From Brumimicrobium oceani (lineage in GTDB: Bacteria > Bacteroidota > Bacteroidia > Flavobacteriales_D > Crocinitomicaceae), in the NCBI RefSeq assembly GCF_003143775.1, contig NZ_QFRJ01000002.1, positions 144,501-208,500 on the forward strand: a stretch of DNA of 64,000 bases, written 5' to 3'. The translations under genes and the position numbers were made by a program. The notes under the pieces were generated by a model, which saw only the letters and a list, made by a program, of their open reading frames with translations, was not told where the DNA came from and ran no database searches. Of the stretch, positions 25,232 through 51,225 are shown piece after piece; position 1 is the first letter of the stretch; each line of letters opens with the position of its first letter.

Positions 25232-25245
25232 ATGATTCAAATCAT
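25232..25245 (+). promoter_or_regulatory. FNR/CRP-type operator upstream of the 579-residue protein
   Basis: ATGATTCAAATCAT is a perfect inverted repeat with core TGAT-N4-ATCA, the FNR-type half-site arrangement. Its centre is 25238.5. The candidate -7 box TAACTTTC (25268-25275) would start transcription near 25280-25282, placing the dyad about 41-43 bases upstream, a class II activator position. A matching dyad occurs before ccoS (28146-28157). Binding is an inference. Confidence 0.55.
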
Positions 25246-25264
25246 AAAATGAAAAAATAAGTTG

Positions 25265-25296
25265 ACTTAACTTTCCGGCTTATTTAAAAGTTAAGT
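25265..25296 (+). promoter_or_regulatory. Inverted repeat in the leader, next to the start codon
   Basis: ACTTAACTTT (25265-25274) and AAAGTTAAGT (25287-25296) are exact reverse complements with a 12-base loop. The repeat spans the candidate -7 box and ends three bases before ATG 25300. It could be a second regulator site or an RNA hairpin; the left arm may not be fully transcribed. Confidence 0.4.
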
Positions 25297-25299
25297 TAA

Positions 25300-27039
25300 A
25301 TGACAAAAGCACATAGCTTCCATATTCCTGTTATGGGAATTGGATTCACAATAGATTCCCCGATGAAGGTTGCACAATATGGTATTGACTCCGTTGTCTC
25401 GCTTGTAGATGATGAGTTGATGGAGAAACTAAGAAAAGTGTACAGCAAAAAGTTCAAGATCAATTATATTGAAATTCCAAAAAAAATTAATGATTACAGA
25501 GCAAAAAGAATAACATCGTATTTAAACTTGATTAAAGAGGTAAGCGAACAGAGGTTTGAAGAACTCAAAAAATCGGCAAACGGATTAAAAGATTATTTTA
25601 GCTTGTGTAACGAAGAAATCCCTGCGAAAGAACTTTGCAAAAATAATATGACATTAGGAAGTATTGATGTTAATATTATGACCAAAGTAGATAAAGAAAA
25701 CTATAAAGACAAGGAACTTTTACCCTTTGAATACAATGACGCACACGCAGCTTTGCGTGGTTATGCTCAAAGCGCACTAAACACATCTTTAGTCCTTTCT
25801 GCAGGAATGAATCCAAGACTCTACAGTTACATTGAACAATTTGAAGACTTTTACGCCAACGAAACAGGTAAAATAAAGAAAAAAATAATACTCAAGGTCA
25901 GTGATTATAGGTCGGCGATTATTCAAGGAAAATTTTTAGCTAAAAAAGGGATTTGGGTGTCAGAATACAGGATTGAATCGGGATTGAACTGCGGAGGCCA
26001 CGCCTTTGCAACAAACGGATTTTTGATGGGTCCCATTTTAGCAGAATTTAGAGACAATAAAGAAAGCACCAAGAACGAACTGTTTTCCATCCTTTGCAAA
26101 GCCTTAGCGTCCAAAGGTAGAGTTATACCCAAAAATGCACCCAAAATAAAATACTCCGCACAAGGTGGTATTGGAACAGCAGAGGAACATGATTTTTTAC
26201 TGAAACATTATGAATTTGACAGTATTGGTTGGGGCACACCTTTCTTACTCGTTCCGGAAGCTACAACTGTAGACAAAGCAACACTGGAAAAACTTAAAAA
26301 CGCCAAGGAAGATGACTTATACCTCAGTGACATCTCACCATTAGGAGTTCCGTTCAACAACCTTAGAGGAAACTCAAAAGACTTAGAAAAGGAATCAAAC
26401 ATTACAAAAAAACGTCCTGGAAGCTCTTGTCCAAAGAAATACCTCGCGCAAAACAAGGAGTTTACAGAACAAAACATCTGTACTGCGTCCCGTCAATATC
26501 AACATTTTAAAATTCAAGAACTACAAGAGGAAAAGCTACCAAAATTGGAATATGAAAAAAGATACAACAAAATCACTGAGAAGTCTTGTATTTGTGTTGG
26601 ATTAGGGACTTCCGCCCTACTGAATGAAGGGATAGACACCCGAAAAGAAGGTCCGGGTGTATCAGTTTGTCCAGGACCAAATTTAGCTTACTTCTCAAAC
26701 GAAATGACGCTAAAAGAAGCTGTTGACCATATCTACAAGCGAAAGAACATGATGACACGAACAGACCGTCCGCATATGTTTATTAAAGAACTGCGCTTAT
26801 ATTTGAGCGATTTTAAAAAGAAAATTGAAGAGCTTCCCGTTCATTGGAATAAAAAAGATATTAATTTGTTGAAGTCCTACAGTGAAAATTTACAGAAGGG
26901 CATCTCTTATTACAAAGAAATATTTTCATCACAGAATCAGTATTTTATAAACGAAAAAAGAAGGAATATTTCCGAATTAATCAATAGTAGTATACTTTTA
27001 AAAAGTTGGTCGGAGAAGCTTGAATTCGAAATAGCTTAG
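25300..27039 (+). CDS. Putative FMN TIM-barrel/Fe-S oxidoreductase, function unknown
   Basis: A 579-residue cytoplasmic protein I cannot name. The N-terminus (PVMGIGFTIDSPMKVAQYG, then SVVSLVDDELMEKLR) and the block KYSAQGGIGTAEEHDFLLKH (about 284-303), followed by WGTPFLLVPEATT (311-323), resemble the FMN-phosphate-binding half of nitronate monooxygenase or glutamate synthase barrels (GGI, then a GT-F motif). RIESGLNCGGHAFAT (about 224-238) also looks glutamate-synthase-like. Cysteines at about 377, 394, 430, 432 and 457 could hold an Fe-S cluster; others are at 103, 113, 231 and 266. The last 100 residues are helical and charged. The FNR-type dyad upstream and terminator at 27096-27135 make a single-gene, probably oxygen-controlled unit. 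Confidence 0.6.
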   Translation: MTKAHSFHIPVMGIGFTIDSPMKVAQYGIDSVVSLVDDELMEKLRKVYSKKFKINYIEIPKKINDYRAKRITSYLNLIKEVSEQRFEELKKSANGLKDYFSLCNEEIPAKELCKNNMTLGSIDVNIMTKVDKENYKDKELLPFEYNDAHAALRGYAQSALNTSLVLSAGMNPRLYSYIEQFEDFYANETGKIKKKIILKVSDYRSAIIQGKFLAKKGIWVSEYRIESGLNCGGHAFATNGFLMGPILAEFRDNKESTKNELFSILCKALASKGRVIPKNAPKIKYSAQGGIGTAEEHDFLLKHYEFDSIGWGTPFLLVPEATTVDKATLEKLKNAKEDDLYLSDISPLGVPFNNLRGNSKDLEKESNITKKRPGSSCPKKYLAQNKEFTEQNICTASRQYQHFKIQELQEEKLPKLEYEKRYNKITEKSCICVGLGTSALLNEGIDTRKEGPGVSVCPGPNLAYFSNEMTLKEAVDHIYKRKNMMTRTDRPHMFIKELRLYLSDFKKKIEELPVHWNKKDINLLKSYSENLQKGISYYKEIFSSQNQYFINEKRRNISELINSSILLKSWSEKLEFEIA

Positions 27040-27095
27040 ACTCACAAAGGCCTCAAATAATTGCTTGAACCAGTTGTTTTAAGCTTCTTAAAAAT

Positions 27096-27135
27096 AACGG
27101 AAACAATTCGCATAATTGTTTCCGTTCATTTTTTA
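27096..27135 (+). terminator. Terminator of the 579-residue gene
   Basis: AACGGAAACAATT (27096-27108) pairs perfectly with AATTGTTTCCGTT (27114-27126) around a five-base loop and leads into a T-run. Confidence 0.88.
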
Positions 27136-27242
27136 AATAGGTTACCCACAACCATACTCGTTCTTTACAACAATAACAACTATTTGTAAAATAAGTCTTT
27201 GAAGCTAAATTAATAGTAAGCGAAAATCAAAAAAAGATTCAG

Positions 27243-27283
27243 TCCGAAGCCTGAGAAATCCTCAGTCGTTTGACTCCTTCGGA
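27243..27283. other. Compact folded element in intergenic DNA
   Basis: TCCGAAG (27243-27249) and CTTCGGA (27277-27283) enclose CTGAG-AAATC-CTCAG (27251-27265) and AGTC-GTTT-GACT (about 27264-27275). The two inner hairpins share two bases, so they are alternatives, or one is shortened. The rest of the 27040-27597 gap has no gene that I can see apart from the FKBP promoter. Confidence 0.3.
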
Positions 27284-27512
27284 ATTGCAGTTGTTATATA
27301 AATGATGCAGGAAAGTTGCCTGTCGATTATAAATCCGAAAATACAGAGTATTGAGGAATGTCTTTTGTTGTTCAGAAAAACCTTTAATAAGTCATATTAA
27401 ACTAAACTCAAAGCTTTTAAATTAATACTAGTGTTCACTTTAGGAGGAATCAATTTTTTAACAGAATTTGCGATAAAATACTTCACTAAATTCAAAAAAA
27501 GCAGCTTATATC

Positions 27513-27543
27513 TTTGGACTTCGTAACATAAGCCATAACTTTG
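27513..27543 (+). promoter_or_regulatory. FKBP promoter, textbook Bacteroidota form
   Basis: TTTG at 27513-27516, then exactly 19 bases, then TAACTTTG at 27536-27543. This is the cleanest -33/-7 pair in the window. Leader of about 50 bases before ATG 27598. Confidence 0.7.
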
Positions 27544-27597
27544 CACAAGATTTGAGTAAATATGCTTTAATCATTATTAATATACAAACAAAGTTTT

Positions 27598-28029
27598 ATG
27601 AGTCAAGTTAAACAAAATGACAAGGTAAAAGTACACTACACAGGTAAATTAGCAAACGGTGAAGTTTTCGATAGTTCAGAAGGACGTGATCCAATGGAAT
27701 TTCAGGTTGGTACAGGTCAACTAATCCCAGGATTCGAGAATGGTGTAATTGACATGAAAGTTAATGAGAAAAAGACAATAGTAATTCCTTCAGCAGAAGC
27801 TTATGGCGAGCCACGCGAAGAATTAATTCAAGAAGTACCAAGAGATCGTTTACCTCAAGATATTCAACCAGAAGTGGGTATGGGTTTAGTGTCTAAAGCT
27901 CCAGATGGTAATGAAATTCAATTGCTAGTAAAAGAAGTTAAAGAAGATGCCATTATCGTTGATGGTAATCATCCTTTAGCAGGTAAAGAATTAACTTTTG
28001 ATATAGAGGTGGTGGGAATCAACTCATAA
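27598..28029 (+). CDS. FKBP-type peptidyl-prolyl cis-trans isomerase (SlyD-like)
   Basis: Cytoplasmic prolyl isomerase/chaperone of 143 residues. The FKBP core is split by an insert-in-flap domain: VHYTGKLANGEVFDSSEGRDP and GTGQLIPGFENGVIDM at the start, the insert about 70-125, then GNHPLAGKELTFDIEV at the end, which is the SlyD pattern. It lacks the His-rich metal-binding tail of E. coli SlyD. It is a single gene with a consensus promoter and terminator. Confidence 0.93.
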   Translation: MSQVKQNDKVKVHYTGKLANGEVFDSSEGRDPMEFQVGTGQLIPGFENGVIDMKVNEKKTIVIPSAEAYGEPREELIQEVPRDRLPQDIQPEVGMGLVSKAPDGNEIQLLVKEVKEDAIIVDGNHPLAGKELTFDIEVVGINS

Positions 28030-28050
28030 TTAATAGTTATAATATAATTT

Positions 28051-28078
28051 AAAAAGGCGACAGAGTTCTCGCCTTTTT
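28051..28078 (+). terminator. FKBP gene terminator
   Basis: AAAAAGGCGA (28051-28060) pairs with TCGCCTTTTT (28069-28078) around an 8-base loop; the T-run continues to 28081. Confidence 0.88.
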
Positions 28079-28145
28079 TTTATGTCCAGTTTTTAACAAA
28101 AACGCTGTAGCCCTTTGTTTATTAAGAATCAATCTAATTTAGAAC

Positions 28146-28157
28146 TGATATAAATCA
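28146..28157 (+). promoter_or_regulatory. FNR/CRP-type operator upstream of the cbb3 operon
   Basis: TGATATAAATCA has the core TGAT-N4-ATCA, the same as the dyad at 25233-25244. Its centre lies about 62-64 bases before the expected transcript start, near the class I activator position. FNR-type control of cbb3 oxidase is well known in Proteobacteria; for this organism it is an inference. A second dyad TCAC-N4-GTGA lies at 28189-28200. Confidence 0.55.
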
Positions 28158-28201: not shown

Positions 28202-28209
28202 TATATTTG
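28202..28209 (+). promoter_or_regulatory. cbb3 operon promoter -7 box
   Basis: TATATTTG is a perfect TAnnTTTG and ends four bases before the ccoS ATG, so the transcript may be leaderless. No TTTG -33 element is at the right distance, which fits dependence on an activator. Confidence 0.5.
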
Positions 28210-28213
28210 TACC

Positions 28214-28405
28214 ATGGAAATTATATACGTAATGTTAGTTGTGAGTTTGCTTCTCGCACTATTGTTTTTAATCTCTTTTATATGGGCCAATAAAACTGGA
28301 CAGTATGATGATGATGTAACACCAGGCATGCGCATGTTATTCGAAGATGAAGAAGTAAAAGAAAAAGTTGAAATAGAAGTTAAAGAAAAACCAATTAAAG
28401 AATAA
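28214..28405 (+). CDS. ccoS: cbb3-type oxidase assembly protein CcoS
   Basis: Small assembly factor for the cbb3 oxidase, needed for cofactor insertion into CcoN. The 63 residues have a single membrane helix (about 3-25) and the family stretch WANKTGQYDDDVTPGMRMLF, followed by an acidic/lysine tail. Its stop shares one base with the ccoN start (TAATG), so the genes are translationally coupled. CcoI/FixI, its usual partner, is absent from this window. Confidence 0.92.
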   Translation: MEIIYVMLVVSLLLALLFLISFIWANKTGQYDDDVTPGMRMLFEDEEVKEKVEIEVKEKPIKE

Positions 28406-30585
28406 TGGAAAAAGTAGAAGTTAGGTATGACAACAAAATTGTAAAGTACTTTGCGTACGCCACAATTATTTGGGGAATAACAGGAATGACGGTCGGATTG
28501 ATTGCGGCTTTGCAGTTAGCTTTCCCTGATTTTTTCAATGATTACCTTGGGTATAAGTATATATCTTTTGGTAGAATTCGTCCATTGCACACCAATGCAG
28601 TGATTTTTGCTTTCGTAGGAAACGCAATTTTTACGGGTGTTTATTACTCACTTCAGCGTTTATTGAAAACAAGAATGTGGAGTGATAAATTAAGTTACTT
28701 GAACTTTTGGGGATGGCAACTAATTATTCTTTCAGCGGTAATTACTTTACCAATGGGATTCACTTCTACAAAAGAATATGCGGAATTAGAATGGCCTATT
28801 GATATTGCTATTGCCGTGATGTGGGTTGTTTTTGGTTGGAACATGTTCGCTACAATTCTTGTGAGACGTGTTAAACACCTTTATGTAGCAATATGGTTTT
28901 ACTTGGCTACATTCGTAACCGTTGCCGTTCTTCACATATTTAACTCTTTCGAGGTTCCTGTGCACTTCATGAAAAGTTACTCTTGGTACTCTGGAGTTCA
29001 GGATGCCTTAGTTCAGTGGTGGTATGGACACAATGCAGTAGCATTCTTCTTAACTACACCTTTCCTTGGATTGATGTATTACTTCGTACCAAAAGCAGCT
29101 AATCGTCCAATTTACTCTTATAAACTATCAATTATCCACTTCTGGGCATTGATCTTCTTATACATTTGGGCTGGACCACACCACTTATTATATTCAAGTT
29201 TGCCAGATTGGGCACAATCACTAGGAGTTGTATTCTCAATCATGTTAATTGCTCCATCTTGGGGTGGAATGCTAAATGGTCTTTTAACGCTGAGAGGTGT
29301 TTGGGATAAAGTAAGAGATAATGTTGTATTAAAATTCTTCGTAGTAGCCCTTACTGCTTATGGTATGGCAACATTTGAAGGACCAATGTTATCATTGAAA
29401 AACATTAACTCAATTACACACTTTACGGATTGGATTGTTGCTCACGTTCACGTAGGTGGATTAGGTTGGAATGGAATGTTAACCTTCGGAATGATGTATT
29501 ATTTATTCCCACGCTTATTCAAAGTTGAATTATACTCTAAATCTTTAGCCAACGCTCACTTCTGGATTGCAACTTTAGGGATCTTACTTTGGACTATTCC
29601 AATGTACTGGGCTGGATTTAGTCAAGGTTTAATGTGGCAAGAATTTAACCCAGACGGAACTTTAATGTACCCTGACTTCTTAAGTACTGTTACAGCACTT
29701 AAACCATTCTACATTATGCGTACTTTTGGTGGATTAATCTACATCATCGGTGTATTTATGATGGCATACAACATCAGAAAAACGGTTAAATTAGGTTCAT
29801 TCATTAAAGAAGAAGTAGTATTAGTTACTCCAACAATTGACAAGAAAGAAGACCACTCTGGCGAACACTGGCACAGAGTTATCGAGCGTAAACCAGTTCG
29901 AATGTTAGTATTTAGTTTCATCGTAATTGCGATTGGTGGTGCGGTAGAGATTATTCCTACAATGGCTGTTGAATCTAACATTCAAAAAATATCTCAAGTT
30001 AAGCCTTACACTCCTCTAGAGTTAGAAGGTCGTGATATTTACATTCGCGAAGGATGTGTTGGTTGTCACTCTCAAATGGTTCGTCCATTACGTTTCGAAA
30101 CAGAGCGTTATGGTGAATACTCTAAAGCTGGTGAATTTGTTTATGACCACCCGTTCTTGTGGGGATCTAAGCGTACAGGGCCAGACTTAGCGCGTGAAGG
30201 AGGATTAAGAAGTGATTCTTGGCACTACTCTCACATGATTATGCCTAAAGAAATTTCTCCAGGTTCAATCATGCCTGCTTACCCTTGGTTAGCTGAGGAA
30301 AACCTTGACACAAAGCACCTTGAAAAGAAAATTCGCGTGTTACAAAGCATGGGAGTTCCTTATCCAGAAGGTTTTGATCAAGAAGCCATGGCTGATTTAG
30401 AAGCACAAGCGAATAAAATTGCACAAAATGTGATTAAGGATTTGAGTAAAGAACAAAGTAATGTAGCCGTTTCTGACATAGCTAATAAAGAGATTATTGC
30501 TCTTATCGCTTACCTTCAAAGATTAGGTACAGACATTAAAGCTGTTCCTGCTGATGAGACTGAGGTAGAAACTTCAATGAAATAA
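28405..30585 (+). CDS. ccoNO: cbb3 oxidase fused subunits I and II
   Basis: High-affinity terminal oxidase core. The 726 residues are a fusion of CcoN and CcoO. CcoN (about 1-480, about 12 helices) keeps haem/CuB ligands His62 (PLHTN), His209 (YGHN), His259-260 (GPHHLL) and His347/His349 (AHVHVGG). CcoO (about 495-726) has one membrane anchor and the monohaem site CVGCH (551-555) with later Met ligands (IMPAYPW). Fusion is usual in Bacteroidota. A linker of 30 charged residues (KKEDHSGEHWHR) joins the parts. It uses O2 at low concentration and pumps protons. Confidence 0.97.
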   Translation: MEKVEVRYDNKIVKYFAYATIIWGITGMTVGLIAALQLAFPDFFNDYLGYKYISFGRIRPLHTNAVIFAFVGNAIFTGVYYSLQRLLKTRMWSDKLSYLNFWGWQLIILSAVITLPMGFTSTKEYAELEWPIDIAIAVMWVVFGWNMFATILVRRVKHLYVAIWFYLATFVTVAVLHIFNSFEVPVHFMKSYSWYSGVQDALVQWWYGHNAVAFFLTTPFLGLMYYFVPKAANRPIYSYKLSIIHFWALIFLYIWAGPHHLLYSSLPDWAQSLGVVFSIMLIAPSWGGMLNGLLTLRGVWDKVRDNVVLKFFVVALTAYGMATFEGPMLSLKNINSITHFTDWIVAHVHVGGLGWNGMLTFGMMYYLFPRLFKVELYSKSLANAHFWIATLGILLWTIPMYWAGFSQGLMWQEFNPDGTLMYPDFLSTVTALKPFYIMRTFGGLIYIIGVFMMAYNIRKTVKLGSFIKEEVVLVTPTIDKKEDHSGEHWHRVIERKPVRMLVFSFIVIAIGGAVEIIPTMAVESNIQKISQVKPYTPLELEGRDIYIREGCVGCHSQMVRPLRFETERYGEYSKAGEFVYDHPFLWGSKRTGPDLAREGGLRSDSWHYSHMIMPKEISPGSIMPAYPWLAEENLDTKHLEKKIRVLQSMGVPYPEGFDQEAMADLEAQANKIAQNVIKDLSKEQSNVAVSDIANKEIIALIAYLQRLGTDIKAVPADETEVETSMK

Positions 30586-30798: not shown

Positions 30799-32256
30799 AT
30801 GAAAAGAATGATGAACTTAAGGAAATCAATCCTTCTAAGCATTTTAACAGTCGGACTTTCACTTGTGGCCAATGGTCAAGATGGACAAAAGATATACGAA
30901 AGTAAATGTTCTGTCTGTCATATTCTTGGAAAGGACGCAACTGGTCCAAACTTAGTTGGTGTAAAAGCAAAATGGGAAGGCGAAGAAGAAAACCTATATA
31001 AATGGGTACTTAATCCTGCTAAACTAATAGAATCAGGAGAAAGCGAAAGAGCTTTGATTGCTGAGCAATTTAGCCCTGCTCCTATGCTCGCTCAAAACAT
31101 AACGATTGAAGAGGCCAAAGCAGTAATTGAATATGCGGATAGTTATGTTGCTGAGGCACCGGTTGCTGCAGCAGCAGACCAAGCGACAGCTGTAAGCACA
31201 GACATGGCGACAGGCGATGTTGTTTATGTAGATAATTACGAAGAAAATCTTACCATTTTTAAAGTGTTCATGTTTATCATATTAATTCTTTTGCTAGGAA
31301 TCTTTATGGTATCACGTAGCACTTCTGCCTTAATTAACTCGGATATGTATCGCGAAAAAATTGCAGAATTACATCACAAGTCGAAAAATGGTGGTAAAGC
31401 CTTAACGATGTTGTTGGTTCTTGGATTTATAGGTAGCAGTCAAATGGCAAGTGCATTAAGCTTTACGGGACCAACTCAAGCAGCAAAAGACTTGGAGTTA
31501 TGGGTTTATGTAACTGCAGCAGATATTAATGCATTGTTGATTATTACTTTATTACTTTTAGGATTCTTGTTAATGATGATCAATATGTTCTACAAAACTT
31601 TGAGAATCATTAAACCTAAGGAAGTTAGGGTAAAAGCAGATGGAACTCCAGAAAGAAGCAGTTTTATGCAAGCAATGCAAGGAGGTGTTTCAATTGAAGA
31701 CGAGCACAAAGTAGATCTTGGTCATGATTATGATGGAATTCGTGAGTTGGACAATCCTATGCCACCATGGTGGGTTGCTTTATTCTATGTAACGATTGCT
31801 TTCTCTGTTGTATATGTATTCCATTACCATATTTTAGGTACAGGAGATTTGCAACAAGCGGAGTACGACAAATCTGTTGAACAAGCGAAAATCGAAATTG
31901 CAGCATATAGGGAAGCAAATGCCATGAATATCGATGAAACGAATGCTATCCTTATGGAAGAAGCTTCTGATCTGATGGCAGGTCAAGCCATTTATGAAAA
32001 CAACTGTGCAGTATGTCACCAACCGGATGGACAAGGAGAAATTGGACCAAACCTAACGGATGACTATTGGATTTATGGAGGAGATATTAAAGACGTGTAT
32101 AAAGTACTTAAATACGGTGCACCGAAAGGAATGCCTGCACACGAATCTATATTAAATCCAATTCAGATACAACAAGTAGCTTCCTTTGTCCTTCACTTTG
32201 ATGAAGTAACTCCTGAGAATGGAGGGAAAGAACCGGAGGGAGATTTGGTTGAATAA
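30799..32256 (+). CDS. ccoP: cbb3 oxidase subunit III with an additional N-terminal cytochrome c domain
   Basis: Electron-entry subunit. The 485 residues have: an N-terminal signal segment, then a cytochrome c domain with CSVCH (37-41); a membrane helix about 152-172; helices about 200-218 and 241-265; a fourth about 323-342; and a C-terminal cytochrome c domain with CAVCH (403-407), MPPWWVALFY just before the last helix. The final part is canonical CcoP; the first 150 residues are an added monohaem domain. I infer an intramolecular electron relay that would replace or supplement a soluble donor. A terminator lies directly downstream. Confidence 0.92.
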   Translation: MKRMMNLRKSILLSILTVGLSLVANGQDGQKIYESKCSVCHILGKDATGPNLVGVKAKWEGEEENLYKWVLNPAKLIESGESERALIAEQFSPAPMLAQNITIEEAKAVIEYADSYVAEAPVAAAADQATAVSTDMATGDVVYVDNYEENLTIFKVFMFIILILLLGIFMVSRSTSALINSDMYREKIAELHHKSKNGGKALTMLLVLGFIGSSQMASALSFTGPTQAAKDLELWVYVTAADINALLIITLLLLGFLLMMINMFYKTLRIIKPKEVRVKADGTPERSSFMQAMQGGVSIEDEHKVDLGHDYDGIRELDNPMPPWWVALFYVTIAFSVVYVFHYHILGTGDLQQAEYDKSVEQAKIEIAAYREANAMNIDETNAILMEEASDLMAGQAIYENNCAVCHQPDGQGEIGPNLTDDYWIYGGDIKDVYKVLKYGAPKGMPAHESILNPIQIQQVASFVLHFDEVTPENGGKEPEGDLVE

Positions 32257-32333: not shown

Positions 32334-32382
32334 CATATATAATGGCATATTTGACTAGAAATTGTCACTAAAAAAACACAAG

Positions 32383-33795
32383 ATGTTAAAAGAAGAAGAC
32401 TTATACGAAGATGAATTTAGAGATTCCATCTCAACCATTGGAGAGGATGGTAAAAGAATTTGGGTTTATCCTAAAAAGCCCAAGGGAATGTTTCACAAAT
32501 GGAGACTTGTTCTTAGTATCTTTTTAATTGCGTTTTTGTTTGTGGCACCTCATATTAAGATTGGTGGACAGCCGCTAATTTTAATAGGTATACTAGAACG
32601 TAAATTCGTTCTATTTGGTCAGGTATTCTGGCCTCAAGACCTTTACATATTTGCATTTACGATGATTTTAATGATGGTTTTCATCATCCTATTTACCGTC
32701 GTTTTTGGTAGGGTTTTCTGTGGTTGGGTCTGTCCTCAAACCATATTTATGGAGTTTGTATTTCGTAAAATCGAATATTGGATTGAAGGAGACTGGACAC
32801 GTCAGAAGAAATTAAATAAACAACCTTGGAACAAAGAGAAAATTTTTAAGAAAACTGCAAAGCACTCTATTTTCCTTTTGGTTTCATTCCTTATAGGAAA
32901 TACATTTTTGGCTTACATTATTGGTGCTGATGCATTATGGGAAATTCAAACAGACCCTCTTTCTGCACACTTAGGTGGTTTCATAGCAATGGTCGTTTTT
33001 TCATTGGTATTTTACGGAGTATTTGCTTTCATGAGAGAACAAGTCTGTACAACAATTTGTCCTTACGGAAGACTTCAAGGTGTACTATTGGATAAAGATT
33101 CCATCATTGTTGCTTACGACCATAAACGTGGAGAAAGCAGAGGCCGATTCAAGAAAACTGAAAACAGAGAGGAAGTTGGTAAAGGAGATTGTATAGATTG
33201 TAAACAATGTGTACACGTTTGTCCTACCGGTATTGATATCAGAAATGGAACTCAGCTGGAATGTGTAAACTGTACTGCCTGTATAGATGCATGTGACGAT
33301 ATCATGGAGGCTGTAAACCTTCCAAAGGGATTAATTCGCTATGCTTCTGAAAACAATATTGAAGGTGGGAAAAAGTTTAAATTCACTAAAAGAATGCAAG
33401 CTTACACCGCTCTCTTAGGATTATTGCTAGTGATTTGGGGAGCTTTAGTTTTCACTAGAACAGACTTTGAAGCTGTAGTGTTGAAGAAAAGAGGTTCAAC
33501 TTATCAGGTATTAGAAAACGGAATAATTAGTAATATTTACGAAATTAGTCTGATTAATAAATCCAAAGAAAGCTTTGATGTTCAACTTCAACTAGAAGAT
33601 GGTTTAGAGGGCTCTATAAGCATGCCTAAATCTTCTATTTCTCTTGGACCAGAGGAACAAATTAAAGACAATTTTGTGATCCGATTGGATTCAAAAGAGC
33701 TTAAACGAGGACAAAAGAAACTCAAGATTAAAATCTTAGGAGACGGAGAAGAACTTTATGAGGTAAAAACAAGTTTTGTTGGACCTTTACTTTAA
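32383..33795 (+). CDS. ccoG: Cytochrome c oxidase accessory protein CcoG
   Basis: Membrane Fe-S protein that supplies reduced copper for cbb3 assembly. ATG 32383 gives 470 residues; an upstream TTG at 32362 would add seven and lacks support. Features are several helices in the first 200 residues, FCGWVCPQTIFMEF and CTTICPYGRLQGVLL Cys motifs, two ferredoxin-type clusters (CIDCKQCVHVCPTGIDIRN and CVNCTACIDACDDIME) near 270-315, one more helix near 340-365, and a periplasmic Ig-like C-terminal domain. Confidence 0.94.
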   Translation: MLKEEDLYEDEFRDSISTIGEDGKRIWVYPKKPKGMFHKWRLVLSIFLIAFLFVAPHIKIGGQPLILIGILERKFVLFGQVFWPQDLYIFAFTMILMMVFIILFTVVFGRVFCGWVCPQTIFMEFVFRKIEYWIEGDWTRQKKLNKQPWNKEKIFKKTAKHSIFLLVSFLIGNTFLAYIIGADALWEIQTDPLSAHLGGFIAMVVFSLVFYGVFAFMREQVCTTICPYGRLQGVLLDKDSIIVAYDHKRGESRGRFKKTENREEVGKGDCIDCKQCVHVCPTGIDIRNGTQLECVNCTACIDACDDIMEAVNLPKGLIRYASENNIEGGKKFKFTKRMQAYTALLGLLLVIWGALVFTRTDFEAVVLKKRGSTYQVLENGIISNIYEISLINKSKESFDVQLQLEDGLEGSISMPKSSISLGPEEQIKDNFVIRLDSKELKRGQKKLKIKILGDGEELYEVKTSFVGPLL

Positions 33796-33814: not shown

Positions 33815-34237
33815 ATGAACTGGGGACACGGAATAACCATTGCATTAATAGCGTTCATCTCATACATAGTGTATATGGGAGTAGTATTAATGAGTAAGGA
33901 CACTCAACTGGTTACACCAGATTACTATAAAGATGAAGTGCAATTTGAAAGAGAAATTAATGCGCAACAAAACGCAATTAAAAATAAAAGTGATCTTGCT
34001 TTAGAGTTATCAGAGAACGGTGTATTTATTAGATTAAATACACCTGATGAGGTAGAACTATTAGATATCAATCTATACCGTCCGAATGCAAAGGATGGCG
34101 ATATCTCTATTGCCTCTAAAGGTAAAAGTATGTTTATAGATAAATCGGAATTAGAATCCGGTAAATATTACGTTACCGCAGAATGGAAAGCACAGAATGA
34201 AAGCTACCAAATGAGAGATACCCTATGGATTCCATAA
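33815..34237 (+). CDS. fixH: FixH family protein
   Basis: Membrane-anchored protein of 140 residues associated with cbb3 oxidase biogenesis. One N-terminal helix (about 5-27, GITIALIAFISYIVYMGVVL), then KDTQLVTPDYYKDEVQFE, the usual FixH hallmark, and a periplasmic beta domain ending DTLWIP. Family role: cbb3 assembly, probably with a copper P-type ATPase. Its last 13 bases overlap the SafE-type gene. Confidence 0.9.
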   Translation: MNWGHGITIALIAFISYIVYMGVVLMSKDTQLVTPDYYKDEVQFEREINAQQNAIKNKSDLALELSENGVFIRLNTPDEVELLDINLYRPNAKDGDISIASKGKSMFIDKSELESGKYYVTAEWKAQNESYQMRDTLWIP

Positions 34238-35010
34238 TTAATATAATTTTCATTTCTTTTTCTCTGGGATTGGTTACCAACCTGCACTGTATTGGAATGT
34301 GCGGACCTATAGCCATGGCCCTTCCTTTAAATAGAAAGTCCAACGCAACCATTACTGGAGGAATCACCTCCTACTCTATTGGTCGTAGTTTGGGTTACAC
34401 CCTAATGGGAGTGGTCGTAGGAATTATTGGATTAAGCGCTTCTGTGCTGGGAGTTCTACAATGGTTAAGTATTGTCTCTGGAATTTTAATCATCTTTTTT
34501 GCATGGGGTGCCTATTATAAAAGTGGTGTGAAATCTTCCTGGTTCAATAAGTTGGTCATGCGCACCATGTCAAAGTTCTTGAAAGGAAAGCCCGCAGGAA
34601 CACCAAAATTAATGGGTATTGGCTTTATCAATGCATTTTTACCTTGTGGAATGGTATATATAGCACTAATCAGTGCATTAAACGCTGGAAGTATTCAGAA
34701 CTCGATGATTTACATGTTTTTCTTTGGTTTAGGGACTTTACCTGGGTTTATCTTCTTGGGGGTTTTAAAAGATTTCTTTGCAAGAGCAAGCTTCTTTAAC
34801 AGAAAATTTGTGTTGGCTAGTTTAATCTCAGTAGTTGGACTTTTTATGATTTTAAGGGGCCTAAACCTAGGCATTCCATATGTTAGTCCAAAGATTGAAA
34901 TGATGATGGCCAAAGGTGAAAAGAAAGCCTCAAGCGATGCTAAAATAGAAGCTAAGATGAGTTGTTGTTCTAGTAAAGAGGAGGAAGAGTGTACTGATGG
35001 AGAAGAGTGA
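34225..35010 (+). CDS. Sulfite exporter TauE/SafE family membrane protein
   Basis: Six- or seven-helix membrane protein of 261 residues. Start LGLVTNLHCIGMCGPIAMAL carries the HCIGMCGP Cys motif that this family shares with DsbD-like copper/thiol proteins in cbb3 clusters; a second block is GFINAFLPCGMVYIAL. The C-terminus is a short Cys-rich acidic tail (KMSCCSSKEEEECTDGEE), suited to metal binding. Its position after fixH suggests a part in copper or thiol supply for the oxidase; direct evidence is lacking. Confidence 0.88.
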   Translation: MDSIINIIFISFSLGLVTNLHCIGMCGPIAMALPLNRKSNATITGGITSYSIGRSLGYTLMGVVVGIIGLSASVLGVLQWLSIVSGILIIFFAWGAYYKSGVKSSWFNKLVMRTMSKFLKGKPAGTPKLMGIGFINAFLPCGMVYIALISALNAGSIQNSMIYMFFFGLGTLPGFIFLGVLKDFFARASFFNRKFVLASLISVVGLFMILRGLNLGIPYVSPKIEMMMAKGEKKASSDAKIEAKMSCCSSKEEEECTDGEE

Positions 35011-49884: not shown

Positions 49885-51225
49885 TTATTCTTCGTCTCTC
49901 CAATTCAATCTGTCTTCTGGACTAAATTGCCATGGAGCACCGTTGTTCTCAATGTTAGATATCATTCCTGCCAATTCTGTTGGTACTTTTGACTCTTCCA
50001 TTACAAGGTAACGACGCATGTCTGTAATTATAGACAATGGGTCAATATTTACAGGACAAGCTTCAACACAGGCATTACATGAAGTACATGCCCACAATTC
50101 TTCTTCGGTAATGTAGTCATTCAGTAAACTCTTACCATCGTCATAATCTTTTCCATTTTTACGTAAACCAGCACCTTTTTCTTCCAATCGGTCTCTGGTG
50201 TCCATCATAATTTTTCTAGGAGAAAGAAGTTTCCCCGTTCTGTTTGCCGGACAATTTGAAGTACATCTTCCACATTCTGTACAAGTGTATGCATCCAATA
50301 AGTTCTTCCAAGACAAATCCTCAACATCTTTCGCTCCAAATCTTTGCACCTCAGCTTCTCCTTCACCCTCTTCCGGCATAGCGTATGGATCTGCATCTGG
50401 ATCCATCATCAATTTCACTTCTTTCATCACTGCCTCCATGTTGGTTGCTTTACCTTGAGGATTTAAATTAGAGAAATAGGTGTTTGGAAAAGCTAAAATA
50501 ATGTGGAAATGCTTAGAGAAAGGAAGGTAATTTAAAAAAGTAAACACCATTAAAATGTGTCCCCACCAACCAATTCTTTCCACCATAATTAATGATGATT
50601 CACTCATTCCACCAAAAAGGGCTGGCCCCACATACTGAGATATAGCAAACCCTAAGGATTGATCACCAAGATTTTCGGCATGGGAAAGACCTTGAGCGTA
50701 AAGCACTTCATCCGCACCATTCATCATAAAAATAAAGGTGATTAAAATCAACTCCATTACCAAAATAAGGTTACCATCTACTTTTGGCCATCCTTTCATT
50801 TCTTTCATGTTGAAACGCGGAATTTTCAATAGATTTCTTCTTGCTAAGAATAAGAAAGTAGCTACAAAAGCCAAAACAGAAAGCACTTCGATAAATGATA
50901 TCATAAAGGTATAAAAACCTCCTAATGAAGACCTAAACAATCTGTGTTCACCTGATAATCCATCTGCAATAATTTCTATCAATTCAATTTGTGTAATTAC
51001 AAAAGCTACATATAAACACAAGTGTAAGATTGCTGGGATAGGACGTTTAAACATCTTTTTTTGACCTAGAGCAATGAGCGTCATCACTTTTAACCTTTCC
51101 CCTTTGTTATCGGAGCGATCTACATCACGTCCCATTAAAATATTTGCTCGAATTTTATTCGCATTCATCGCGAAAAATCCAAATCCGACAAGTAATAAAA
51201 CTGCAAAAATTATAATTGATATCAT
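49885..51225 (-). CDS. Membrane (Fe-S)-binding protein with NarI-like N-half
   Basis: 446 residues. The N-terminal half has about five hydrophobic helices (about 1-235; GFYTFMISFIEVLSVLAFVA) that resemble NarI/HdrE-type cytochrome b subunits. The C-terminal half has two 4Fe-4S clusters: CTECGRCTSNCPANRTGKLL and ACTSCNACVEACPVNIDPLS, then DMRRYLVME. It is predicted to pass electrons between the menaquinone pool and the CCG protein next to it. The 30-base gap to the CCG gene suggests one operon. Confidence 0.9.
   Translation of the reverse strand: MISIIIFAVLLLVGFGFFAMNANKIRANILMGRDVDRSDNKGERLKVMTLIALGQKKMFKRPIPAILHLCLYVAFVITQIELIEIIADGLSGEHRLFRSSLGGFYTFMISFIEVLSVLAFVATFLFLARRNLLKIPRFNMKEMKGWPKVDGNLILVMELILITFIFMMNGADEVLYAQGLSHAENLGDQSLGFAISQYVGPALFGGMSESSLIMVERIGWWGHILMVFTFLNYLPFSKHFHIILAFPNTYFSNLNPQGKATNMEAVMKEVKLMMDPDADPYAMPEEGEGEAEVQRFGAKDVEDLSWKNLLDAYTCTECGRCTSNCPANRTGKLLSPRKIMMDTRDRLEEKGAGLRKNGKDYDDGKSLLNDYITEEELWACTSCNACVEACPVNIDPLSIITDMRRYLVMEESKVPTELAGMISNIENNGAPWQFSPEDRLNWRDEE

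Follow-up and report, generated by a model that had tools for sequence, protein, structure and literature searches.

Two FNR-type dyads that probably join a cbb3 oxidase operon and an unannotated protein family in one low-oxygen regulon of Brumimicrobium oceani

The locus

The 64-kb window, by which the whole analysed stretch of DNA is meant, carries a cbb3 oxidase operon that begins with ccoS and, upstream of it, the gene of a conserved protein of 579 residues, here called P579. The initial annotation had reported TGAT-N4-ATCA sites at 25233-25244 and 28146-28157, and both are present at these coordinates. Both also conform to the inverted repeat TGAY-N4-RTCA of the FNR/FixK anaerobox. To read the promoters, the published -7 box of flavobacteria was used, in which TAnnTTTG occupies -12 to -5 (described for F. 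psychrophilum in PMC9723704). The features are as follows.

25233..25244, + strand: FNR-type dyad TGATTCAAATCA, centre 25238.5, at -41.5 relative to the predicted P579 start (class II position)
25268..25275, + strand: -7 element TAACTTTC, matching TAnnTTTG in 5 of 6 consensus positions, at a gap of exactly 23 nt from the dyad
25280..25280, + strand: start of P579 transcription as predicted from where TAnnTTTG lies in F. psychrophilum (PMC9723704)
25300..27039, + strand: P579, 579-residue conserved protein, with a predicted NMO/PfaD-like beta/alpha part and a Cys-conserved C-terminal part
27598..28029, + strand: FKBP peptidyl-prolyl isomerase, between the two promoters
28146..28157, + strand: FNR-type dyad TGATATAAATCA, centre 28151.5, at -62.5 (class I position) before ccoS
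28202..28209, + strand: -7 element TATATTTG, 4 nt upstream of the ccoS ATG
28214..28405, + strand: ccoS, with the predicted transcription start at the A of its ATG (leaderless)
28405..30585, + strand: ccoNO fusion (cbb3 oxidase subunits I/II)
30799..32256, + strand: ccoP
32362..33795, + strand: ccoG
33815..34237, + strand: ccoH (FixH)
34225..35010, + strand: DsbD_2 / cytochrome c biogenesis membrane protein, which recurs after ccoH in relatives

From the centre of the first dyad it is 61.5 nt to the ATG of P579 and 41.5 nt to the predicted start, in agreement with the 42 bases or so that had been estimated earlier. The centre of the second lies 62.5 nt from the ccoS ATG, which coincides with the start predicted from TATATTTG, and here the earlier figure was about 63. 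A TTTG at -33, said to be missing from both promoters, is by eye indeed absent from each. The class II and class I centres of FNR and CRP in E. coli are -41.5 and about -61.5, and these positions are reached here through gaps of 23 and of 44-45 nt between the dyad and TAnnTTTG.

Five matches to TGATNNNNATCA occur in the window against 2.12 expected, a count that is marginal on its own because five or more are reached in 5 of 100 shuffles. The three remaining matches were rejected as operators: the site at 27960-27971 falls within the FKBP coding sequence and is judged a chance match, that at 50739 also lies inside a gene, and that at 2177, although between genes, shows by eye no suitably spaced -7 box. 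An inverted repeat at about 25263-25299, around the start of P579, is absent from the B. glaciale orthologue and was likewise taken as chance.

Spacing and conservation of the dyads

Across the 3.85-Mb genome the bare TGAT-N4-ATCA motif has 145 matches. Enrichment upstream of genes, which the initial annotation had proposed to look for, is absent for this 12-mer: 9 of the first 50 sites listed are intergenic, against 16.4% noncoding DNA when coding DNA is called by a simple ORF rule (p = 0.44). The bare motif is thus as frequent inside genes, an outcome that had been named beforehand as speaking against operators, and the argument for operators has to come from spacing and conservation. These two lines are decisive and confirm that both dyads are real.

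A gap of exactly 23 nt is found in 7 of the 24 composites of dyad and -7 box in this genome (p = 8e-6 for a single specified gap among 31). Over 120 genomes of the family, composites with this gap number 560, compared with 43 for a control gap of 28; five of the 120, one of them within the genus (G088), have no gap-23 composite. No claim is made for a second peak at gap 34 (4 of the 24 composites; about 0.2 expected over 31 gaps).

Conservation upstream of orthologues, which had also been made a touchstone, is found at both genes. Matches to ccoS occur in 89 of the 120 genomes, and the best 30 were taken, of which one (L052) was dropped for having just 22 bp upstream. Among the 29 loci left from these best matches, 26 have an exact TGAY-N4-RTCA at -62.5 to -64.5, where the background is 1 in 1508 positions; all 29 have their best -7 box (5-6 of 6 letters) exactly 4 nt ahead of the ATG, and seven carry a second exact dyad at -41.5. 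Ten further ccoS loci have a gene for a receiver-CRP fusion as neighbour, and nine of them carry an exact dyad at a gap of 45 from a 5-6/6 box, which puts its centre at -63.5; every other gap occurs at most once in the ten. The tenth (L280), read by hand, has its exact dyad at -63.5 from the ccoS start and a box of just 4/6. The apparent loss of the -63.5 site in these promoters was an artefact of counting from the called ATG: measured from the -7 box the dyad keeps its position, and most of these genes have a leader.

The P579 loci come from the better matches, the best 30 of the 142 genomes with P579 having given loci in one search, and two (L040 and L140) were left out as duplicates of L024 and L023. 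Among the 47 distinct loci so obtained, 19 have the exact dyad, and in 18 of these, or 18 of 47 overall, a 5-6/6 box follows at a gap of exactly 23. Dyad, box and spacing are identical in B. glaciale (L024/L040), and a variant is seen in a further genome (G282, L025). In the other 28 loci no exact dyad was found within 350 bp, so dyad control of the P579 gene is not universal.

Further class II (-41.5) sites of this genome precede nadA, two candidate small-RNA genes and the genes of a 123-aa protein, a DUF2061 protein and a fatty acid hydroxylase. A weaker class II site with a 5/6 box stands ahead of the COX15-CoADR-FNR operon, and a gap-45 site ahead of an ScdA/RIC-type Fe-S repair gene. Elsewhere in the proposed regulon there is a conserved candidate small RNA. 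The candidate RNA upstream of nadA would be roughly 110 nt long, and about 270 nt in this genome. Within the genus, ccoS of the cbb3 oxidase is present in 10 of 10 genomes examined and P579 in only 3 of 10, so the link between them is a shared regulator and not a fixed pair.

Candidate regulators

An FNR/CRP-family gene had been named as something to look for, and one is found; the assumption of a single protein did not hold, as there are at least two candidates with similar recognition helices. The first is an FNR-like protein with conserved cysteines (C4:65368-66069; L018:1036-1740), in which both a cNMP-binding fold and a Crp-type HTH are present. Its recognition helix reads TTQESTIR, with TATET(L/V)IR in four aligned FNRs linked to cco, and thus has the E...R of FNR, two residues whose role in the FNR recognition helix is known. 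In the five aligned proteins a CxxC and a later Cys are invariant, and the third N-terminal Cys is out of register.

The second candidate (C9) joins a receiver domain and a CRP/FNR protein in one chain, and its gene follows that of a histidine kinase with a FixL/DosP-like PAS domain (L271:6366-7877). The PAS domain of this kinase matches FixL chains (E 4e-14) and DosP (E 4e-12) in the PDB, and another multi-sensor kinase chain ahead of FixL (E 8e-15). Among 14 aligned kinases, the FixL-type proximal His is kept in all 13 rows that hold the region. The kinase of this genome has Leu at the column that we take to be the position of the FixL distal Arg; Arg is present there in 4 of the 14 aligned kinases that hold the column.

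Within 12 kb of ccoS, 14 of 47 genomes have relatives of the FNR-like protein and 10 of 47 have relatives of the FixL-like kinase/receiver-CRP pair, and none has both; these counts come from the matches of one query with E up to 1e-20, by which other CRP genes could be missed. At least 24 of the 47 have some CRP/FNR-family gene at that distance. In the genome studied here, a CRP/FNR gene adjoining cco is not present. The reading of the two promoters as class II and class I members of a shared regulon, already made in the initial annotation, gains support from the conserved positions, the recurring -41.5 spacing and these CRP/FNR neighbours of cbb3.

The P579 family

P579 belongs to an unannotated family present in 142 of 395 Bacteroidota genomes examined. 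It has no match above cut-off in Pfam, including the nitronate monooxygenase (NMO) model PF03060, or in NCBIfam, and none in PADLOC; nothing relevant was returned from the PDB by single-sequence or profile search, or from plasmids and viral contigs. Single members of the family give scattered hits below the cut-offs.

Its earlier label as a "flavin/Fe-S-like" protein is plausible without being established. The CGGH of P579 aligns with the AGGH motif of NMO, and a later QGG(I/V)GT...GxPF with AGG(I/V)G...GSxF. Comparison of profiles with FMN proteins of the NMO, PfaD and trans-acting enoyl reductase group gives E 0.019 and a probability of 2.5%. PfaD and DfnA/MlnA are among the best fold matches of two AlphaFold models, one of the full protein and one of its first 360 residues; the models are of low confidence (mean pLDDT 47 and 51), and with E of about 0.002-0.05, none at 0.001, the matches are not significant. 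P579 differs from these enzymes in an added C-terminal part with invariant cysteines at 377, 394, 430, 432 and 457. It probably has a fold of the NMO/PfaD class and works as an FMN enzyme, extended by a cysteine-rich domain that may carry an Fe-S cluster.

Co-occurrence was computed over those genomes that a pair of searches shared (78 of 120 and 43 of 60), with statistics that ignore phylogeny. NosZ occurs in 6 of 14 genomes with P579 and in 1 of 64 without (p = 7e-5). The FNR type of this genome, defined by a cut-off of E < 1e-50 that was chosen after the scores were seen, occurs in 7 of 9 with P579 and in 1 of 34 without (p = 8.5e-6). The neighbours of P579 include nos genes at two loci and, by eye, norCB at one.

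A proposed low-oxygen regulon

We infer that both dyads are operators for dimeric activators of the CRP/FNR family, which probably bring the cbb3 operon and the P579 gene under common control at low oxygen; given the conserved, fixed distances between dyad and promoter, the two would probably be induced together when oxygen is low. At the P579 promoter, a dimer bound at -41.5 would adjoin the -7 element and make up for the lack of a -33 contact (class II). Before ccoS, the dimer would sit two helical turns further upstream, at -62.5 (class I), and the mRNA would start at the ATG. The FNR-like protein and the receiver-CRP fusion are the candidate readers of the dyads, and most likely the kinase/fusion pair would act when oxygen is moderately low, and the FNR-like protein when it is nearly absent. 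The two would thereby share their sites, in the way that FixK and FnrN converge in rhizobia. P579 itself would probably act during anaerobic or nitrogen-oxide respiration.

The alternative that survives best keeps the CRP/FNR-family operators and changes the signal, which would be nitric oxide, nitrogen oxides or redox, sensed as by DNR, NnrR or HcpR, with oxygen acting only indirectly. It would suit the co-occurrence of P579 with NosZ and with the FNR type of this genome, the nos and norCB neighbours, and the place of the FNR-like gene in a cluster downstream of the ScdA/RIC repair gene and the COX15-CoADR operon. It is nevertheless unlikely, as the same dyad precedes cbb3 genes in genomes where the search found no NosZ, the PAS domain of the kinase resembles oxygen-binding haem PAS domains, and a relative, F. 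psychrophilum, is reported in PMC9723704 to raise cbb3 and haem gene expression at oxygen limitation. A repressor that acts at these operators and is released when oxygen falls is less likely still: CRP-family proteins are able to repress, but dyads centred upstream of the -7 box, at -41.5 and -62.5/-63.5, fit activation, as does the missing TTTG at -33. Chance matches in an AT-rich genome, to which the 145 unenriched bare sites and the shuffled windows might point, are refuted for both sites by the fixed-distance conservation among the best ccoS matches and by the excess of gap 23.

Within the low-oxygen regulon, we tentatively suggest that a FixL-FixJ-FixK cascade may have been condensed in this Bacteroidota lineage to just two proteins, with a FixL-like haem-PAS kinase phosphorylating a receiver that is fused to a FixK-like CRP protein. 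The fusion may share its operators with a parallel Fe-S FNR, either of them travelling with cbb3, and the joint regulon may include a cysteine-rich flavoprotein family and an FNR-activated small RNA.

Comparison with known systems

The centres are those of E. coli FNR/CRP promoters, -41.5 and about -61.5, with class I here at -62.5/-63.5; sigma factor and -7/-33 consensus are different, and the ccoS mRNA is predicted to be leaderless. The PAS domain of the kinase aligns with the haem-PAS sensors FixL and DosP along some 110-120 residues; it keeps the proximal His region, and kinase domains follow. The kinase differs from FixL in this genome by the change of the distal Arg to Leu and by its neighbour gene, a receiver-CRP fusion in place of a FixJ-type regulator.

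The closest parallel is the FixK/FnrN anaerobox TTGAT-N4-ATCAA of rhizobial fixNOQP, which, as described in PMC7888657, has the same core palindrome and the same target, a cbb3 oxidase. According to the same paper, sensors of the FixL and FNR kinds likewise converge in rhizobia, with paired sites at some genes. Against that description, the outer T/A pair is missing at both window sites and relatives also use TGAC/GTCA, the promoters have the Bacteroidota -7 element TAnnTTTG, and the receiver and the FixK-like protein are one fused chain.

Significance

Bacteroidota form a major phylum of the sea and the gut whose promoter code is unusual, and a literature search found little on how they sense oxygen. 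The arrangement described here yields a testable promoter rule with which related genomes can be scanned (TGAY-N4-RTCA, 23 or 44-45 nt, TAnnTTTG), points to two specific proteins as candidate sensors for the cbb3 oxidase, and gives the unannotated P579 family a physiological context.

Dyads and genes of the cbb3 region

The two FNR-type inverted repeats (dyads) TGAT-N4-ATCA that the initial annotation reported ahead of an uncharacterised gene and of the cbb3 oxidase operon are both present in the window:

25233-25244, dyad TGAT-N4-ATCA ahead of the P579 gene
25300-27039 (+), P579, the 579-residue ORF downstream of the first dyad
28146-28157, dyad TGAT-N4-ATCA ahead of ccoS, ccoNO, ccoP, ccoG and ccoH

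The genome is Brumimicrobium-like, the closest named relative found being B. glaciale (75% identity over P579). The gene order P579-FKBP-ccoS-ccoNO is conserved in two further genomes of the genus (L182, L288); among ten genus genomes examined, P579 is absent from seven and ccoS is found in all ten.

Taken alone, the 12-mer is weak evidence. The window holds five copies where 2.12 are expected, a number also reached in 5 of 100 shuffles, and the whole genome holds 145. Nine of the first 50 of these (contigs C1-C4) fall between genes, against a noncoding share of 16.4% in the fetched DNA as judged with a simple ORF criterion (p = 0.44), so that the bare motif occurs inside genes as often as upstream of them, the outcome named in the initial annotation as speaking against it.

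Promoter spacing

The flavobacterial -7 box, TAnnTTTG, is located at -12 to -5 by Guerin et al. (2021, PMC9723704). On that basis, a spacing of 23 nt from dyad to box sets the dyad centre at -41.5 (class II), and gaps of 44 and 45 set it at -62.5 and -63.5. A composite search of the own genome (TGAY-N4-RTCA, gap 20-50, TAnnTTTG) returned 24 matches, seven of them at a gap of exactly 23 (p = 8e-6, for one named gap) and at most four at any other gap. Across 120 family genomes, gap 23 gave 560 composite matches, spread over 115 genomes, against 43 in 37 genomes for the control gap of 28; the five genomes in which it was not found include one of the genus (G088).

The P579 box, TAACTTTC, carries 5 of the 6 consensus letters at gap 23, which places the dyad centre at -41.5, in agreement with the class II position proposed earlier. 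The ccoS box, TATATTTG, lies at gap 44 and four bases 5' of the ATG, so the transcript is predicted to begin at the ATG; the dyad centre at -62.5 bears out the proposed class I position. Neither promoter has a TTTG at -33 by eye, as had been claimed.

Conservation upstream of orthologues is clear for ccoS and partial for P579. In 26 of the 29 ccoS loci with sufficient upstream sequence, the dyad is exact at -62.5 (3), -63.5 (21) or -64.5 (2), against a background of one exact match in 1508 other positions; the remaining three have 7 of 8 letters there, a dyad solely at -41.5, and a dyad at -73.5, respectively. The best -7 box lies exactly 4 nt ahead of the ATG in all 29. For P579, an exact dyad lies no more than 350 bp away in 19 of 47 distinct loci, 18 of these with a 5-6/6 box at gap 23, and the other 28 loci have no exact dyad in that interval.

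An additional exact dyad occurs at -41.5 in 7 of the 29 ccoS loci (at least 7 of 8 letters in 15, those seven counted), mostly as a tandem pair with 22 bp spacing; dyads centred at -63.5 and -41.5 are seen at L045, L047, L048, L051, L053 and L054. In the own genome this proximal copy is missing or degenerate (4 of 8 letters). At P579, an imperfect 13-bp inverted repeat (25263-25299) covers the -7 box and the bases preceding the start codon; none was seen in the B. glaciale orthologue.

Candidate regulators

The suggested search for an FNR/CRP-family gene found HTH_Crp_2 at seven places in the genome, five above its cut-off. Two candidates stand out:

L018:1036-1740, FNR-like protein of 234 residues, whose CxxC lies close to the N terminus and is followed by a later Cys
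L271:6366-8948 (C9), PAS histidine kinase, then receiver-CRP fusion, 504 and 351 residues

The later Cys of the FNR-like protein is presumably FNR's fourth ligand, and its PDB matches include FNR (5e44). The 351-residue regulator comprises a receiver, a cNMP-binding fold and a Crp HTH, and shares the recognition helix E(S/T)xxR with the FNR-like protein. The first PAS domain of the kinase matches the haem-PAS chains of FixL (E 4e-14) and DosP (E 4e-12), the top PDB match being another multi-sensor kinase chain (E 8e-15). A His aligns with what we take to be the haem-ligand column of FixL in 13/13 kinase rows holding the region; at the distal Arg column, the own genome's kinase has Leu, and 4 of 14 rows have Arg.

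Among 47 ccoS-bearing genomes searched for this CRP/FNR family, 10 carry a receiver-CRP gene no more than 12 kb from ccoS and 14 a shorter CRP/FNR gene (four of these loci inspected: L282, L283, L287, L289); no genome has both there. The kinase gene is also present at all ten receiver-CRP loci. Upstream of cco, nine of them have an exact dyad with a 5-6/6 box at gap 45, other gaps occurring at most once each; the tenth (L280) has an exact dyad 63.5 nt ahead of the ccoS ATG, with a hand-read 4/6 box. Gap-23 sites precede the kinase gene in three of the ten and, in six, a gene for some 780 residues, presumably the copper ATPase. Two genus genomes, G136 and G151, retain the ccoS dyad (L045, L046), and a search for close relatives of the FNR-like protein found none in them, which favours the receiver-CRP protein as a reader of the dyad there. 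The arrangement recalls that of Rhizobium leguminosarum, in which both hFixL-FxkR-FixK and FnrN act through anaeroboxes (TTGAT-N4-ATCAA; PMC7888657).

Other probable regulon members

The seven gap-23 sites of the composite search in the own genome stand ahead of a DUF2061 gene, nadA, the gene of a 123-aa protein, a fatty acid hydroxylase gene and two candidate small-RNA genes, and, at a distance of some 560 bp, a 5'-nucleotidase-like gene. A further gap-23 site (box 5/6) precedes the COX15-CoADR-FNR operon, which suggests autoregulation of the FNR-like gene. A ScdA/RIC-type Fe-S repair gene has a gap-45 site ahead of it, and upstream of a NapC/NrfH-like cytochrome gene a dyad and a box stand 29 nt apart.

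L096:5195-5513 and L096:7068-7380 (C4), candidate small-RNA stretches upstream of the 123-aa gene and nadA

These near-identical stretches, headed by class II sites at L096:5195 and L096:7068, lack an ATG ORF of 60 residues, have no Rfam match, and are candidates for an FNR-activated small RNA. In three relatives (G171, G282, G115; L238, L239, L240) the same promoter stands ahead of a shorter candidate RNA, about 110 nt long, in which a 14-bp hairpin is conserved and its loop nearly identical. In the own genome the RNA is interrupted by about 165 bp of a dispersed repeat (L096:5272-5438; query positions about 31-197), found at four other places in the genome and in relatives, which apparently inserted before the small-RNA gene was duplicated.

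The P579 protein

P579 occurs in 142 of 395 Bacteroidota genomes and 16 of 299 genomes of the order. Searches with the window protein gave nothing above cut-off in Pfam or NCBIfam, nothing in PADLOC, and no relevant hit among PDB sequences. Invariant residues in 17 sequences include C231-G-G-H234, C377, C394, C430, C432 and C457. In a weak comparison with 17 nitronate monooxygenases of relatives (E 0.019, probability only 2.5%), CGGH pairs with AGGH, and QGG(I/V)GT...GxPF with AGG(I/V)G...GSxF. In fold searches with two low-confidence models, PfaD and the enoyl reductases DfnA/MlnA are among the top matches (E ~0.002-0.05).

Among 23 P579 loci, nadA-nadB is a neighbour in five (L166, L167, L168, L180, L181), two of which also have nos genes, and nadA of the own genome has a class II site. 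The cco operon is a neighbour in three, all from this genus; norCB, anaerobic ribonucleotide reductase, a FixI-like ATPase and NiFe hydrogenase, named by eye, occur once each, and none of these genes is evident in about 13. Of 14 genomes with P579, 6 have NosZ, compared with 1 of the 64 without P579, a count that ignores phylogeny, and regulators of this FNR type co-occur with P579 in 7/9 against 1/34, likewise ignoring phylogeny and with an FNR cut-off set post hoc. Given these neighbours and co-occurrences, P579 most likely serves anaerobic metabolism.

Relation to known systems

In the titles and abstract openings of open-licence papers, a weak negative, nothing was found on FNR/anaerobox control of cbb3 in Bacteroidota or, in the same scope and equally weakly, on a FixL/receiver-CRP pair in this phylum. 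Signalling-protein censuses such as PMC1183210 may already count the receiver-CRP architecture, and FNR/DNR control of cbb3 is treated for Rhodocyclaceae in PMC8510549. The initial observation and its main inference, a shared regulon, are supported, on better grounds than those first offered; the type of system is already known, and what is new is the fused regulator, the promoter grammar of Bacteroidota and the members of the regulon.
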